IMG/VR virus record: IMGVR_UViG_3300023440_000621
Coordinates: 1-21,169 of that record
Length of the DNA stretch: 21,169 bases
Direction: 5' to 3' (one strand)
Source of the DNA: a virus
Shown here: positions 7,214-20,356 of the stretch, one piece after another
Position numbering within the stretch: position 1 is the first letter of the stretch
How the letters are laid out: the number at the start of each line of letters is the position of its first letter
Position numbers and translations under genes: made by a program
The notes under the pieces: generated by a model
What the model saw: only the letters and a program-made list of their open reading frames with translations
Databases searched by the model: none
What the model was told of the DNA's origin: nothing

Positions 7214-8449
7214 ATGCCACAGGCGCGCGGATCACAGGCGAAATTCTATCTCTATGACGAGGATACCTATGGGCAGGATCCCGGCACACCGGCGGCGAAG
7301 CGGGTCTATCTGACCGGCTGCAACCTGGCCACCACCCAGAATAAGCTGGAGGACGACACGCTGCTCAATGCCCGCACCCGGGCGCGGCCTGACGCGGGCA
7401 ACATCGACGGCGGCGGCAGCATCCCCATGAACATGGCGGCGGAGGATATCGGCCCGCTGCTGAAACATGCATTGGGGCAGGTGGCGACCTACCGGCCGGT
7501 ATCCACCCAGCCAGCGAATATCACTGGCGTCACGGTGGCTCATGCCGAGAGCACCTGTCCGACAGGCAACGGCACGCTGTCGTTCACAGCCGTTGGCACG
7601 CTGCTGAGCTGGCAGGCCAGTGGCGATACCGCCGGCGCCGGCGTGGACGTGAGCGCGGGCGGCACGTTCACTCTGCAATCCGGCACCGCCGGCGCGGCGC
7701 TGACGGTGACCGTGGCCCAGGCCAGCCTGCCGGGTACGGACCAGAGCGACACCATCACCGTGGTGGCGGCCTACAAGCATGTGTTCACCATCGGCGACCT
7801 GCCGGCCGGCTTCACCTTCGAGAAGGATTTTGGCGCGAATATCGCGGGCACCGGCCGGGTGGAGAAATTCAACGGCTGCCGCATCGCCACCGGGACGTTC
7901 GATTTTCCCCAGGAGGGATACTGCACCGCAAATTTCGATGTGAAGGCCGCGAACTCGACCCTGCAGAGTGCCGCGCTGGACGCTACGCCGGAGGACAACG
8001 GCCATACCTCGTTCTCCGCGTTCCGCCTGGCGACGCTGGAGGAGGGCGGCGCGGCCATCGCCAAGGTGAAGAGCCACAACTACGTGCTCAACAACGAGCT
8101 GGACGAGGACGGCTATGTGCAGGGGGGCAGCAACAGTGGCATCCGCGTGGATATGTCGGAGGGGTTCGCCACAGTGACCGGCCAGATCACCGCCATCTTC
8201 GATGACGCCACGCTGCTGACTAAGGCCATCAACAGCACGGCCAGCAGTCTGCGCTCGGTATTGAAGCGCGGCGACGGTTTCGGCACGGCGGGCAACGAGA
8301 GCATCGAGTTTCTGGTGTCCGCCATGGAATACGAGCGCGCCAGCCCCGAGGTTTCCGGCCCCGGCGGCATTCTGCAGCAGCTCAATTTCAAGGCCTACGG
8401 CAGCGGTTCTCTGCAGGTGACCTTGTTCAACAGCGTGGCGGCGGTCTGA
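7214..8449 (+). CDS. Major tail tube protein with inserted Ig-like domain
   Basis: This 411-residue protein follows a strong GAAGGAGG site (7201-7208). Residues 1-93 and 187-411 match the phage tail tube pattern: a RVYLTGCNLATTQN start, AAEDIGPLLKHALG, then YKHVFTIGDLPAGFTFEKDF and a long strand-rich C-terminus. Residues about 94-186 look like an insertion: a beta domain with GNGTLSFTAVGTLLSWQ, GDTAGAGVDVSAGG and TFTLQSG signatures that I associate with Ig-like add-on domains of phage virions. Without it the protein would be about 318 residues, close to usual tube lengths. The subunits stack into the hollow tail; the extra domain probably points outward. Confidence 0.8.
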   Translation: MPQARGSQAKFYLYDEDTYGQDPGTPAAKRVYLTGCNLATTQNKLEDDTLLNARTRARPDAGNIDGGGSIPMNMAAEDIGPLLKHALGQVATYRPVSTQPANITGVTVAHAESTCPTGNGTLSFTAVGTLLSWQASGDTAGAGVDVSAGGTFTLQSGTAGAALTVTVAQASLPGTDQSDTITVVAAYKHVFTIGDLPAGFTFEKDFGANIAGTGRVEKFNGCRIATGTFDFPQEGYCTANFDVKAANSTLQSAALDATPEDNGHTSFSAFRLATLEEGGAAIAKVKSHNYVLNNELDEDGYVQGGSNSGIRVDMSEGFATVTGQITAIFDDATLLTKAINSTASSLRSVLKRGDGFGTAGNESIEFLVSAMEYERASPEVSGPGGILQQLNFKAYGSGSLQVTLFNSVAAV

Positions 8450-8787
8450 TGTTCAGGATGGCGAAGCAGCGCGAGGTGTTGTGGCCGGTGACGGTGCGCG
8501 TGCCATCTGGCGATGGCAGCGGGGCGGTGGAGGCCTGCGAGATCAAGCTGCGCTTCCGGCTGATGACGCGCAGCGAGGCGCGCGCGCTGGCAGGGCTCAG
8601 CGACGAGGAGTTCGACGCCGAGGTGCGGCGCAGGATCACGGGCTGGGAGGGCGTCTGCGACGAGGAGGGCGAGCCCATCCCGTTCAGCGCCGAGGCGCTG
8701 GCGGCGGCCATGGACGTGCCCTATTTCATGGCGGCCGCCCATACCGGGCTGGTGATGGCCAGCAACGGGGCGCCGGCAAAAAACTGA
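8449..8787 (+). CDS. Tail assembly chaperone, short product (lambda G-like)
   Basis: This 112-residue protein starts in a TGATG overlap with the tail tube gene. It lies exactly between tube and tape measure, where siphophages encode two overlapping chaperones that hold the tape measure and recruit tube subunits. The protein is acidic and helical in its C-terminal half (SDEEFDAEVRRRITGW, then AEALAAAMDVPYFMAAAHTG). Its last three sense codons are GCA AAA AAC followed by TGA, a -1 slippery site in the correct phase. It is therefore the abundant zero-frame product, and a minor longer product is expected. Confidence 0.82.
   Translation: MFRMAKQREVLWPVTVRVPSGDGSGAVEACEIKLRFRLMTRSEARALAGLSDEEFDAEVRRRITGWEGVCDEEGEPIPFSAEALAAAMDVPYFMAAAHTGLVMASNGAPAKN
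8778..8784 (+). other. Programmed -1 ribosomal frameshift site A AAA AAC
   Basis: The heptamer AAAAAAC is phased A-AAA-AAC relative to the upstream frame and is followed immediately by the TGA stop (8785-8787). Slippage by -1 continues at CTG 8784 into an open frame ending at 9122. X-XXY-YYZ heptamers at the same gene junction are established in lambda (G/T) and many other siphophages. A small hairpin (8815-8819 with 8823-8827) lies about 30 bases downstream and may be too far to stimulate. Confidence 0.88.
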
Positions 8788-9122
8788 CCGCGTGGGTGCG
8801 CTGGTTCCTGGGCGCCGACGAAGTCGGACCCGGGTACTGCAAGACGGTGTGCGAGAGGGATTTCTGCGTACCCACGACACGCTGCAAGGACTGCCCGGAG
8901 CCCGACCTTCTGCCGGAGGTCATAGAGACGGTGAACCTGTTTCTGGCCTGCCTGACACAGCGGCGCACGGCGATGATGGGCGGCTGCCTGGGGTTCGACT
9001 ATGCAGGGGTGCGGGCTGCGGCGCAGATGATGCAGATAGACGACGTGGCGCAGTCATTCGAGTGGCTGCGGGTGATGGAACAGGAGATGATCGCGGTTCT
9101 CAACGATGGGCAAGAAGACTGA
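8784..9122 (+). CDS. Frameshift extension of the tail assembly chaperone (lambda T-like)
   Basis: This open frame has no good start of its own near its beginning and is joined to the upstream chaperone by -1 slippage, giving a fusion of about 224 residues (112 plus 112). It begins LTAWVRWFLGADEVG. Five cysteines follow in a C-x3-C-x4-C-x5-C-x2-C pattern at fusion residues 131-149, suggesting metal binding or disulfides. Helices make up the rest, ending MIAVLNDGQED. In lambda the T extension recruits tail tube subunits to the tape measure complex. It overlaps the tape measure start by 17 bases. Confidence 0.8.
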   Translation: MTAWVRWFLGADEVGPGYCKTVCERDFCVPTTRCKDCPEPDLLPEVIETVNLFLACLTQRRTAMMGGCLGFDYAGVRAAAQMMQIDDVAQSFEWLRVMEQEMIAVLNDGQED

Positions 9123-11298
9123 CACGCTGATCCTCAGGCTGGAGACTGACGGCGCCGGCAAGATCCGCGCCTCGCTGCAGGGCGCCGGTCGCGAACTGGA
9201 GCGGACCGGCAAGCAGCTCGGCGGCACCAACCAGCAGCTGGTGCGCATGCGCACCCTGGTGGCGGCCGTGGGCAGCGCGGCGGTGATCAAGGGCATCGTC
9301 TCCACCATCGTGGAATTCGAGCGGCTGGGGGCCTCCCTGGTCACGGTGACGGGCTCCGCCGAGGAGGCCCAGACGCAGTTCGACGCGCTGAAACAGTTCG
9401 CCGCCGAGACACCGTTTCAGGTGCAGGAGGTGGTGGACTCGTTCATCAAGCTCAAGGCCCTGGGGCTGGACCCCTCCATCGAATCCCTGCGCAGCTATGG
9501 CAACACGGCGAGTGCCACGGGCAAATCCCTGAACCAGTTCATCGAGGCCGTGGCGGACGCTGCCACCGGCGAATTCGAACGCCTGAAGGAATTCGGCATC
9601 AAGGCCCGCAAGCAGGGCGACCAAGTGAGTCTGACATTCCAGGGCGTGACCACCACGGTGGCGGACAATGCGGCCGCCATCGAGGGCTATCTGCGGCGCA
9701 TCGGCGACGAGAAATTCGGCGATGCCATGCAGCTGCAGATGGATACGCTGGGCGGCGCATTCTCAAACCTGCAGGACGCAGGCGCACAACTGGCGGAGGC
9801 CATCGGCGAGGCGGGCCTGACCACGGTGCTCAATGGCCTGGCCAGCGCCATGACATGGGCTGCTGAGAAGGCCAAGGCACTGCTGGAAGCCATGAGCGGC
9901 ACGGCTGAAGATCTGAGTTTCACTGGCGGATTCGTCGGCGGCGCGCTGGATCGGATCAAGGAATTGGGCGAGCGGGCAGATGAGGCGCGAAAGAAGATTC
10001 TGGAGCTTCAGGCCAAGGGTACGCTGGGCACCGGGATCAGCGGTTTCCTCTCCGGCGACACCTCTCGCAGGGAACAGGTCGCAGAACTCGAACGCCAGAT
10101 CAGGGCGCTGCGATTCCAGATCAGAAACGAGGCGGCAAATGCCGCCAGGTTCGCACAGGACAACGGTACGGTCGACAACCCCGCAAACAACGAGGCTGCG
10201 CGCAAGGCCGCGGCCCAAGCGGCCGCCGAGCTGACGAAACAGATCGAGGCGCAGCAGAAGCGCATCAACGCTATCTATCAGGCCACGCTGACACCTCAGC
10301 AGCGATTCATCCAACAGACACAGGAACTTGAGTCGCTGCTGTCAGCAGGACTGGACGAGGGCACCTATCTGCGCGCCCTGGCGAAATACCGGGATCAACT
10401 GATCGGCGCCGGCGGCGCCGCCGATGAGAGCAAGCAGAAGATCATGGGGCTGTTCCAGGCGACGCGCACGCCGCAGGAGCAGTTCATTCAGAAGACCCGG
10501 GAACTGGACGAACTGCTGAAGCGCGGGCTGGACGAGGACACCTATCAGCGCGCGCTGATCCAGTACCGGGATGCCCTGATCGGCACCGGCGAGGCAGCGG
10601 ACGACACCAAGGCGCGCATCGAGCGGCTCTATGAGGCGACGCGCACGCCGCAGGAGCGATTCATCCAGCAGACGCGGGAGCTGGACGAACTGCTGAAGGC
10701 CGGACTGGACGAGGATATCTACAAGCGCGCCCTGGCGAAATATCGCGACGAGCTGATCGGGATGGGCGAGGACGGCAAGAAGACGTTCAACGAGTTGCAG
10801 AAGGCCACCGAGAAGTGGGGCGAGCAGTTTACCGGCACGCTGGCGGATATGGTGACCAAGGGCAAGCTTGACTTCAAGAGCCTGGCGGACTCCATCCTCA
10901 ACGATCTGGCGCGCATAGCCATCCGCAACACCATCACCAAGCCGATACTCAGCAGCCTGGGGGAGAGTTTCCCCAGCATATTCGGTGGCGGCAAGGCCCA
11001 TGGCGGGGCGGTATCTTCCGGCGTGTCTTATCTGGTCGGCGAGCGCGGCCCGGAACTGTTCACGCCGCGCGCGTCTGGCAATATCACACCAAATGACAAG
11101 CTGGGCGGCCAGACCTTGGTGCAGGTCATCAATCAGGGCCCCGTGCCGGCCGAAACCCAGCAGCTGCGTACGCCGGACGGCGGCGAGATGATCCGGGTGT
11201 TCGTGCGCGCGGTGGCCGATGACATCTCCCGCGGCGGGCTCATCGCCCGGGCGGCACAGAACCGCTGGGGCCTGGTGCCGCAAGGAGTGGCGCGCTGA
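9106..11298 (+). CDS. Tail tape measure protein
   Basis: This 730-residue protein sets tail length and is packed inside the tube. Residues 1-260 have the typical tape measure start: a Gly-rich helical lead, RMRTLVAAVGSAAVIKGIV, then FERLGASLVTVTGSAEEAQ and an AAETPFQVQEVVDSF segment. Residues 387-563 are three tandem 59-residue repeats. The C-terminus matches the lambda-type domain (GKLDFKSLADSILNDLARIA, then HGGAVSSGVSYLVGERGPELF). The start ATG 9106 lies inside the preceding chaperone frame without an obvious Shine-Dalgarno site nearby, so translation is probably coupled. At about 0.15 nm per helical residue, a tail near 110 nm would be expected; this is a rough inference. Confidence 0.92.
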   Translation: MGKKTDTLILRLETDGAGKIRASLQGAGRELERTGKQLGGTNQQLVRMRTLVAAVGSAAVIKGIVSTIVEFERLGASLVTVTGSAEEAQTQFDALKQFAAETPFQVQEVVDSFIKLKALGLDPSIESLRSYGNTASATGKSLNQFIEAVADAATGEFERLKEFGIKARKQGDQVSLTFQGVTTTVADNAAAIEGYLRRIGDEKFGDAMQLQMDTLGGAFSNLQDAGAQLAEAIGEAGLTTVLNGLASAMTWAAEKAKALLEAMSGTAEDLSFTGGFVGGALDRIKELGERADEARKKILELQAKGTLGTGISGFLSGDTSRREQVAELERQIRALRFQIRNEAANAARFAQDNGTVDNPANNEAARKAAAQAAAELTKQIEAQQKRINAIYQATLTPQQRFIQQTQELESLLSAGLDEGTYLRALAKYRDQLIGAGGAADESKQKIMGLFQATRTPQEQFIQKTRELDELLKRGLDEDTYQRALIQYRDALIGTGEAADDTKARIERLYEATRTPQERFIQQTRELDELLKAGLDEDIYKRALAKYRDELIGMGEDGKKTFNELQKATEKWGEQFTGTLADMVTKGKLDFKSLADSILNDLARIAIRNTITKPILSSLGESFPSIFGGGKAHGGAVSSGVSYLVGERGPELFTPRASGNITPNDKLGGQTLVQVINQGPVPAETQQLRTPDGGEMIRVFVRAVADDISRGGLIARAAQNRWGLVPQGVAR
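10264..10794 (+). repeat. Three tandem 177-bp (59-codon) repeats in the tape measure
   Basis: Units start at 10264, 10441 and 10618, each exactly 177 bp. The protein consensus includes ATRTPQERFIQQTRELDELL, then GLDEDTYxRALxKYRDxLIG. Units 2 and 3 are also highly similar at the DNA level, for example around GCGACGCGCACGCCGCAGGA, while unit 1 has diverged more. The equal length suggests selection on tail-length increments. Confidence 0.92.
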
Positions 11299-18414: not shown

Positions 18415-18807
18415 ATGTCGGATTCTCCATGGCAGTATTTCCCCATCAGTGATCTGGTGTGCCGGTGCGGGTGCGGGCGCTGGGAGATGGACCATGATTT
18501 CATGCCCAAGATCGTGGGGTTGCGGCGCACGCTTGGGTTCCCTTTCATCGTCAGCTCGGCCTACCGATGCCCTGAATACAATGCACGTGTGTCTCACTCC
18601 GGGATGGACGGACCGCATACGACGGGGCGGGCCATGGATATCAAGCTCCATGGCGACCGTGTGCACGCGCTGCTGCGCCTGGCGGGCGACATGGGCATGA
18701 CGGGGATCGGGTTGTCACAGAAGGGCGACTGGGCAGCGCGGTTCGTTCACTTGGACGACCTCAGTTATGACGTGGGCCGGCCGCGGCCTTGGGTCTGGAC
18801 CTATTGA
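18415..18807 (+). CDS. Endolysin, peptidase M15 family
   Basis: This 130-residue protein carries the zinc peptidase M15 (Peptidase_M15_3-like) pattern. It has FIVSSAYRCPEYNARV, then candidate zinc ligands His68 and Asp75 in PHTTGRAMDIKLHG and His112 in RFVHLDD. These enzymes cut peptide bonds in peptidoglycan stems or cross-links. No signal peptide is present, so export to the wall would depend on a holin. An N-terminal Cys cluster (CRCGCGRWE, residues 16-24) is common in this phage branch. It lies between two small membrane-protein genes, as expected for a lysis cassette. Confidence 0.9.
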   Translation: MSDSPWQYFPISDLVCRCGCGRWEMDHDFMPKIVGLRRTLGFPFIVSSAYRCPEYNARVSHSGMDGPHTTGRAMDIKLHGDRVHALLRLAGDMGMTGIGLSQKGDWAARFVHLDDLSYDVGRPRPWVWTY

Positions 18808-19740: not shown

Positions 19741-19917
19741 ATGAAGACGAGGGAATTCAAACGTTGGCTGACCAAACAGGGCGCTGTCTTCGAGCCCGGC
19801 AAGGGCGGCCATCTGAAGGTGTTCCTCAATGGCCGCCGCTCTGTGCTCCCTATGCATTCTGGTGAGATCAAAAAGGGCACCATGGAGGCCATCAAGAAAC
19901 AGTTAGGGCTCAAGTGA
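19741..19917 (+). CDS. hicA: HicA mRNA interferase toxin
   Basis: This 58-residue protein has the compact HicA double-stranded RNA-binding-like fold pattern. It begins MKTREFKRWLTKQGAVFEPG, followed by candidate catalytic His24 in KGGHLKVFLNGRRSVLPMHS and the conserved ending EIKKGTMEAIKKQLGLK. HicA toxins cleave mRNA and halt translation until neutralised. Usual HicA length is 55-85 residues, so this one is complete. No Shine-Dalgarno sequence precedes ATG 19741, and it lies at or next to the predicted transcription start. It is followed by hicB with a 13-base gap. Confidence 0.9.
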   Translation: MKTREFKRWLTKQGAVFEPGKGGHLKVFLNGRRSVLPMHSGEIKKGTMEAIKKQLGLK

Positions 19918-19930
19918 GCAGGAGGTCAAT

Positions 19931-20356
19931 ATGTTCAATTATCCCGTGAATCTCGATACCGCGGAGGAGGGCGGCTTTGTGGTGACGTTCCCCGACGTGC
20001 CGGAAGCCATCACCCAGGGCGACGACGAGGCCGAGGCGCTGATGGCGGCGCGCGATGCGCTGGAAACGGCGCTGGCCATGTATGTGGCGGCCCGTGAGGA
20101 TTTGCCCAGCCCCAGTGCGCCCAAGGGCCGGCCGATCGTGTCGCCCTCTGCGCTGGCCTGCGCCAAGCTGGCGGTCTATCAGGCGATGCGGGAGCAGGGT
20201 ATCGGCAAGGCCGACCTGGCGCGGCGTCTGGGATGGCATCTGCCGCAGGTCGACCGGGTGCTGGATCTGGATCATGCCAGCCGGCTGGATCAGATCGAGG
20301 CGGCGCTGGCGGCGCTTGGGAAGCGGTTGGATGTGGTGGTGAGTGAGGCGGCTTGA
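19931..20356 (+). CDS. hicB: HicB antitoxin with C-terminal helix-turn-helix
   Basis: This 141-residue protein follows AGGAGG (19920-19925), a far stronger initiation signal than hicA has. Residues 1-66 form the HicB fold (MFNYPVNLDTAEEGGFVVTF, then GDDEAEALMAARDALETALA) that masks the toxin active site. Residues about 80-135 form an XRE-like helix-turn-helix (AVYQAMREQGIGKADLARRL), expected to bind the operator at 19697-19729 and repress the operon. The toxin-first gene order is typical for hicAB. Confidence 0.92.
   Translation: MFNYPVNLDTAEEGGFVVTFPDVPEAITQGDDEAEALMAARDALETALAMYVAAREDLPSPSAPKGRPIVSPSALACAKLAVYQAMREQGIGKADLARRLGWHLPQVDRVLDLDHASRLDQIEAALAALGKRLDVVVSEAA

Follow-up and report, generated by a model that had tools for sequence, protein, structure and literature searches.

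A predicted -1 frameshift site abutting the stop codon of a tail assembly chaperone gene, and its conservation among G/DUF1799 relatives

A known tail chaperone frameshift is that of phage lambda, in which the genes are ordered tube, G, T and tape measure and a -1 heptamer, GGGAAAG, lies near the end of G, five codons before its stop. Chaperone heptamers that directly touch the stop have been described as single cases in Burkholderia phage KL1 (gp18/gp19; PMC3483164) and Acinetobacter phage Loki (gp12/gp13; PMC5313236), the examined portions of the Loki report containing no analysis of structure or conservation. Caulobacter phages phiCbK and Colossus carry AAAAAAC and GGGAAAC at the chaperone junction (PMC3556154), the same heptamers as in the family described below. 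In the record of Rhodobacter phage RcapMu a 'potential -1 frameshift' is noted at the position corresponding to the one studied here, before a T of the DUF1799 type that is 29% identical to ours; its heptamer is GGGAAAC, followed by TGA. The RcKemmy and Smarc2 records present G and T as joined genes. In Rous sarcoma virus, barley yellow dwarf virus and HIV-1 test constructs the codon directly 3' of the heptamer is likewise a stop, and at the HIV-1 site in E. coli a next-codon stop reduced the apparent slippage, which vanished with additional RF2 (PMC4373837); these sites belong to eukaryotic viruses or constructs, and not to phage chaperones. No statement of a family-wide touching-stop rule was found in the literature searched, though Xu et al. 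2004, the principal paper on sites of this type, or Horsfield et al. 1995 may hold one. Single chaperone heptamers touching the stop are thus already in print, and the family-wide rule is the generalisation made here.

The DNA analysed (the window) comprises the 21,169 bases of a virus record from IMG/VR. Its chaperone junction is very probably a place where a long-tailed phage uses programmed -1 ribosomal frameshifting, of the ordinary low-level kind, to yield G and a GT fusion. This reading is based on the anatomy of the site, the conservation of the heptamer in the family, the conservation of the stop and the enrichment of stems across the family. The features concerned are:

1-21,169: virus record IMGVR_UViG_3300023440_000621, the whole window
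7214-8449, plus strand: tail tube protein gene, upstream of G (PF18906 Phage_tube_2, E 5.5e-33)
8449-8787, plus strand: gene G, tail assembly chaperone, 112 aa (PHROG 569, E 2.7e-10; PHROG 313 'Tail assembly chaperone', E 1.3e-6)
8778-8784, plus strand: in-phase slippery heptamer A_AAA_AAC (73 of the 81 family clusters have AAAAAAC or GGGAAAC)
8785-8787, plus strand: TGA stop of the zero frame, immediately behind the heptamer (so placed in 69 of the 81 clusters)
8784-9122, plus strand: T extension, a DUF1799 protein of 112 codons plus stop read in the -1 frame (PF08809, E 1.5e-7; PHROG 680, E 1.8e-18)
8791-8801, plus strand: 5' arm of a predicted stem of 11 bp, set off from the heptamer by six bases (other folds compete in longer windows)
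8866-8876, plus strand: 3' arm of the predicted stem, pairing with 8791-8801
9106-11298, plus strand: tape measure protein gene, downstream of T (PF20155 TMP_3, E 1.2e-18; PF09718)

The zero-frame codons at the end of G are GCA (8776), AAA (8779), AAC (8782) and TGA (8785), in agreement with the original prediction that the heptamer lies in the exact X_XXY_YYZ phase and that the stop follows with no spacer. In the -1 frame, T is open from CTG at 8784 to 9119 (112 codons, with a stop at 9120-9122), and the predicted fusion has 112 + 112 = 224 residues, as had been estimated. The frame had also been said to stay open up to the tape measure start; this is nearly right, the tape measure ATG at 9106 giving a 17-base overlap with T. 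The order tube, G, T and tape measure is accompanied by a matching family assignment for each gene, and the assignments of G (PHROG 569 and 313) and T (PF08809) bear out the proposal that the frameshift joins two tail chaperones.

The window's own G matched no Pfam model; PF08748 (Phage_TAC_4) was matched by 17 of 27 scanned G relatives, the window's G being among those without a match, and PF08809 by all 28 aligned T members. A Foldseek search with G returned nothing at E<=0.001. In a second fold comparison, YqbN (3klu), which we take to be a tail chaperone relative, ranked first with Z 4.6 and the HK97 chaperone (2ob9) fourth with Z 2.9, both of which are low values. Comparison of G and T with PDB folds gave no clear match, and sequence profiles gave none.

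Several further features of the window were observed. The tape measure ATG lies inside the last T codons (9106-9122), with no evident ribosome-binding site; translation of the tape measure may be coupled to that of GT through ribosomes reaching its end, and the quantity of tape measure would then follow the frameshift rate. Near the right end (19741-20356), genes for a HicA toxin (PF07927) and a HicB-like antitoxin (PF15919) suggest a temperate phage or a host flank. Positions 18415-18807 encode a Peptidase M15 (PF08291), probably the endolysin. At 1-1803, left of the capsid genes, lies a long open frame that contains imperfect repeats and matches nothing in Pfam; its product looks fibre-like, and the position would be unusual for such a protein.

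Heptamers of the general X_XXY_YYZ type are not rare in phase: the 23 genes of the window contain 22, against 25.4 expected from codon shuffles. The in-phase X_XXA_AAN type is rare, with 2.5 expected over 6173 codon junctions (0.0004 per junction). AAAAAAC itself occurs four times on the two strands of the window (0.54 expected), and only the copy at 8778-8784 is in phase within a gene. That this copy is not a chance occurrence is settled by its being kept in relatives.

To survey these relatives, 364 loci were collected, of which 362 could be analysed; in the other two (L340 and L360) the contig start was too near and there was no overlapping G frame. Clustering by T identity gave 81 clusters at 70% and 41 at 50%. 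The window's own copy (L001), L011-L015 (in which the scan found no DUF1799 T, or which served for comparison) and L157-L159 (HK97, lambda) were excluded from the counts. Sampling was by T similarity and was broad, not random: the best 80 of 588, 80 of 164 and 80 of 263 confirmed loci were taken, and in the phage collection, where 1099 records match one T, 23 regions were inspected. Later sets were seeded from other T proteins, including two clades whose named phage had shown no heptamer. Close relatives were few in IMG/VR: a scan with the window's T found none and one with its G found a single locus (L002). Within the family, junctions with a stop directly behind the heptamer come from Pseudomonadota phages and prophages as well as from those of a Desulfovibrio, a Nitratiruptor and cyanobacteria.

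In the first set of 151 loci the heptamer was present in all 151 and the stop lay directly behind it in 147. Over the 362 loci, 274 had a heptamer with a touching stop, 68 a heptamer 1-13 codons before the stop, and 20 none, meaning no X_XXY_YYZ heptamer within the G/T overlap. Counted as clusters at 70% identity, a heptamer was found in 78 of 81 (AAAAAAC in 42, GGGAAAC in 31, AAAAAAG in 3, GGGAAAA in 1, AAATTTT in 1, none in 3). The expectation that phages usually recode at this junction with other heptamers is therefore true of lambda, with its GGGAAAG, and does not apply to the G/DUF1799 family, where X_XXA_AAC was found in 73 clusters. The stop touched the heptamer in 69 of 81 clusters (35 of 41 at 50% identity), so that the missing spacer is not peculiar to this phage and is a property of most of its family.

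Nine clusters have a heptamer and a stop that does not touch it, the distance being 1 codon (three clusters), 3, 4, 8, 10 (two clusters) or 13 codons. On a tree of 80 clusters (L186 omitted), which was built from only 107 columns and leaves many forks unresolved, the touching state required six changes compared with 10.5 when the labels were shuffled, and departures from it arose several times. As judged from these sequences, the touching-stop rule appears strong, but not absolute, in the G/DUF1799 family. The three clusters lacking a heptamer still keep T. In Rogue1- and KP36-type phages (Drexlerviridae; L162 and L163, near 1490-1504) the junction reads GCAAAGGTC TAA or GCAAAAGTT TAA and contains no X_XXY_YYZ heptamer, T and the position of the stop both being kept; these phages may use a tetramer, A_AAG or A_AAA, or another route. 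PaMx74-like phages, which have a related tube protein, carry TTTTTTC 18 codons before the stop (L011, L013 and L015, at 3559, 3556 and 3036). In Microcystis phage MACPNOA1 (L003, 51-1040) the tail-tube relative is annotated as 'site-specific recombinase XerD', a name that looks wrong.

The conservation of the stop can be separated from that of the T protein, since its three bases, read in the -1 frame, complete T codon 1 (second and third positions) and open codon 2. Among the 69 touching-stop clusters, 65 have A as the first letter of codon 2, as against 20% for the remaining codons of T (binomial p 2e-40), while the encoded residue varies (I 20, T 18, R 14, K 11, A 2, E 2, S 1, M 1), which places the constraint on the stop and not on the T residue. 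The stops themselves interchange (TGA 44, TAA 21, TAG 4). Judged by codon composition, selection evidently maintains a stop directly behind the heptamer; whether it does so for frameshifting or for the end of G is not separable from sequence. No preference was seen in the 69 clusters for a weak next base after the stop (UGAC), the four bases being about equally frequent. UAG was used by 4 of 69 G stops and by 21 of 69 T stops (Fisher p 0.0003). This is a hint of UAG avoidance at the G stop, and no more than a hint because T stops frequently fall where genes overlap and make a less than ideal reference.

One explanation, which is compatible with frameshifting and to which we give slightly less than an even chance, is that the stop is fixed by a need for G to end at this place and has no part in the frameshift. 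The end of G shows conservation of its own (position -4 is R in 52 of 69 clusters, followed by K or G and then N), two of the heptamer-less clusters retain the stop position, and the nine clusters described above manage with a heptamer and no touching stop. However, the end of G passes into T within GT, so that its last residues need not be terminal, and in other chaperone families the stop is found further downstream, by five codons in lambda and 18 in the PaMx74 type; in two published chaperone sets the mean distance from heptamer to stop is 26 and 36 nt (PMC10885494).

The original prediction saw no obvious stimulatory structure within 10 bases of the heptamer. This was not confirmed: after a six-base spacer, 8791-8801 can form 11 consecutive pairs with 8866-8876, although this predicted stem is not the sole stable fold, and stems at this place are enriched in the family. 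An anchored test was used, in which the best stem with a 5' arm starting at offsets 4-9 after the heptamer was scored. Three of the 602 anchors taken as controls within the window scored as well as its stem, as did none of 200 dinucleotide shuffles and 1% of protein-preserving shuffles, and p was about 0.01 when only the 3' partner region was shuffled. Over 69 clusters the mean score was 19.1 at the junction compared with about 14 elsewhere, and over 78 clusters the mean was highest with the 5' arm at offset 7-8 after the heptamer, close to the spacing of the window's stem. With the 5' arm fixed, 28% of the 78 clusters reached p<=0.05, as opposed to 4-14% at six other anchors. The peak is not merely due to high G+C at the start of T, as the effect shrinks but remains under stricter shuffles (39% of 69 clusters below 0.05 with plain shuffles, 26% with protein-preserving ones). 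In one Pseudomonas group of eight sequences, whose stem is not that of the window, compensatory changes were found in 4 of 12 pairs and in none of six slid controls. Among the nine non-touching clusters, anchoring on the heptamer gave no consistently better stems than anchoring on the stop, L187 alone clearly favouring the heptamer.

Folding of the window's sequence depended on the length taken. An 80-base fold after the heptamer, which ends just short of the partner strand, gave z -0.03; at 100 bases z was about -1.4 to -1.8, and about 8% of 255 window segments reach -1.66. The probability of the 11-bp stem was near 1 in folds ending by 8890 and 0 to 0.06 in those ending at 8910, 8960 and 9000; forcing it in the fold ending at 9000 costs only 0.7 kcal/mol. 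The energy of entire folding windows was also considered as a signal of structure. In the 69 clusters its mean z was -0.83 just after the stop, -0.70 at -50 and about -0.67 at +30 and +60 (just after the stop versus other offsets, Mann-Whitney p 0.012), a modest and diffuse signal to which the anchored stem test was preferred. A Shine-Dalgarno stimulator was rejected, as the 25 bases upstream of the heptamer showed no enrichment (a piece of at least 4 bases in 16 of 40 clusters, and at 1427 of 4000 background positions).

T could alternatively be a separate protein, with its own start or termination-coupled to G, next to which the heptamer is incidental. A GTG four codons into T (8796) lies near the G stop, and T frequently appears as a gene of its own in the annotations of relatives; there is, though, no evident ribosome-binding site ahead of 8796, and the first in-frame ATG of T is at residue 64, within DUF1799. 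T is conserved from its first residues ('L.AAAR'), and a structure model predicts a confident helix at residues 2-8. In 6 of the first 40 clusters (L003, L006, L007, L016, L149 and L153) there is no ATG, GTG or TTG before about T residue 56, so that T could hardly be made alone in these. Given also that the heptamer is kept in 78 of 81 clusters, we consider a separate T very unlikely. It is more improbable still that RNA polymerase slips on the run of six A and generates a mixed mRNA pool. The slip site is indeed an A run, albeit a short one for polymerase slippage, but in 31 of 81 clusters it is replaced by GGGAAAC, whose longest run is three bases and at which tandem tRNA re-pairing is still possible; the lack of a long A run in these clusters disfavours slippage by the polymerase. 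A sequencing or assembly error, or a broken gene, would suit a homopolymer at a frame change in a virus contig, but with the frame change at the same place in relatives and a heptamer in 78 of 81 clusters its probability is close to nil.

For ribosomal frameshifting, the preferred reading, the following course of events may be proposed, in which slippage in this phage, its rate, the part played by the stem, the competition with the release factor and the roles in assembly are what we infer from the above. The majority of ribosomes would decode AAA AAC and terminate at TGA, giving the 112-aa G. In a few per cent, the Lys- and Asn-tRNAs would re-pair one base upstream (AAA AAC to AAA AAA), and the slipped ribosomes would read CTG in place of the stop and continue to the 224-aa GT. 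The predicted stem, beginning at 8791, would be at the mRNA entrance while the heptamer and the stop are being decoded and would favour slippage. The release factor acting at the adjoining stop would oppose slippage, and the ratio of G to GT would reflect termination versus slippage; in this RF2-competition model the touching stop would be the brake and the stem the accelerator. The direct competition between slippage and termination named in the original prediction is supported as a deduction of this kind. Their roles would be as in lambda, with G binding the tape measure and GT bringing in the tail tube protein.

Published rates are compatible with a low level of slippage. AAAAAAC and GGGAAAC have been called low-efficiency heptamers in E. 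coli (PMC4066793), IS1 gave about 2% frameshifting on AAAAAAC (PMC12428005), and 6 and 7% were measured in E. coli for two genes of an HK97-like phage chaperone cluster (PMC3711429). A low rate would suit a chaperone pair, given that the two chaperone products of lambda are made at 30:1 (PMC5009743).

A more specific scenario, which we put forward tentatively and regard as rather doubtful, is that the signal of the G/DUF1799 family is a ten-letter box, X_XXA_AAC_URA, with a stem some seven bases further on, in which the stop is a working part and the release factor sets the ratio of G to GT. Slippage would then occur partly with the stop in the A site and the tRNAs in the P and E sites, and the release factor would mostly be RF2 (UGA or UAA in 65 of 69 clusters, UAG in 4). 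If true, this scenario would couple tail assembly to the termination capacity of the host.

The single site in the window is itself ordinary; it is the family pattern that is of wider use, combining two heptamers rated as weak in E. coli, a touching stop that is kept and a positioned stem. The family rule provides a simple annotation pattern for joining T to G, where annotations frequently leave T as an orphan DUF1799 protein; the loci also make up a large natural set, with exceptions of 1-13 codons, for testing whether an A-site stop has a role in bacterial -1 slippage.
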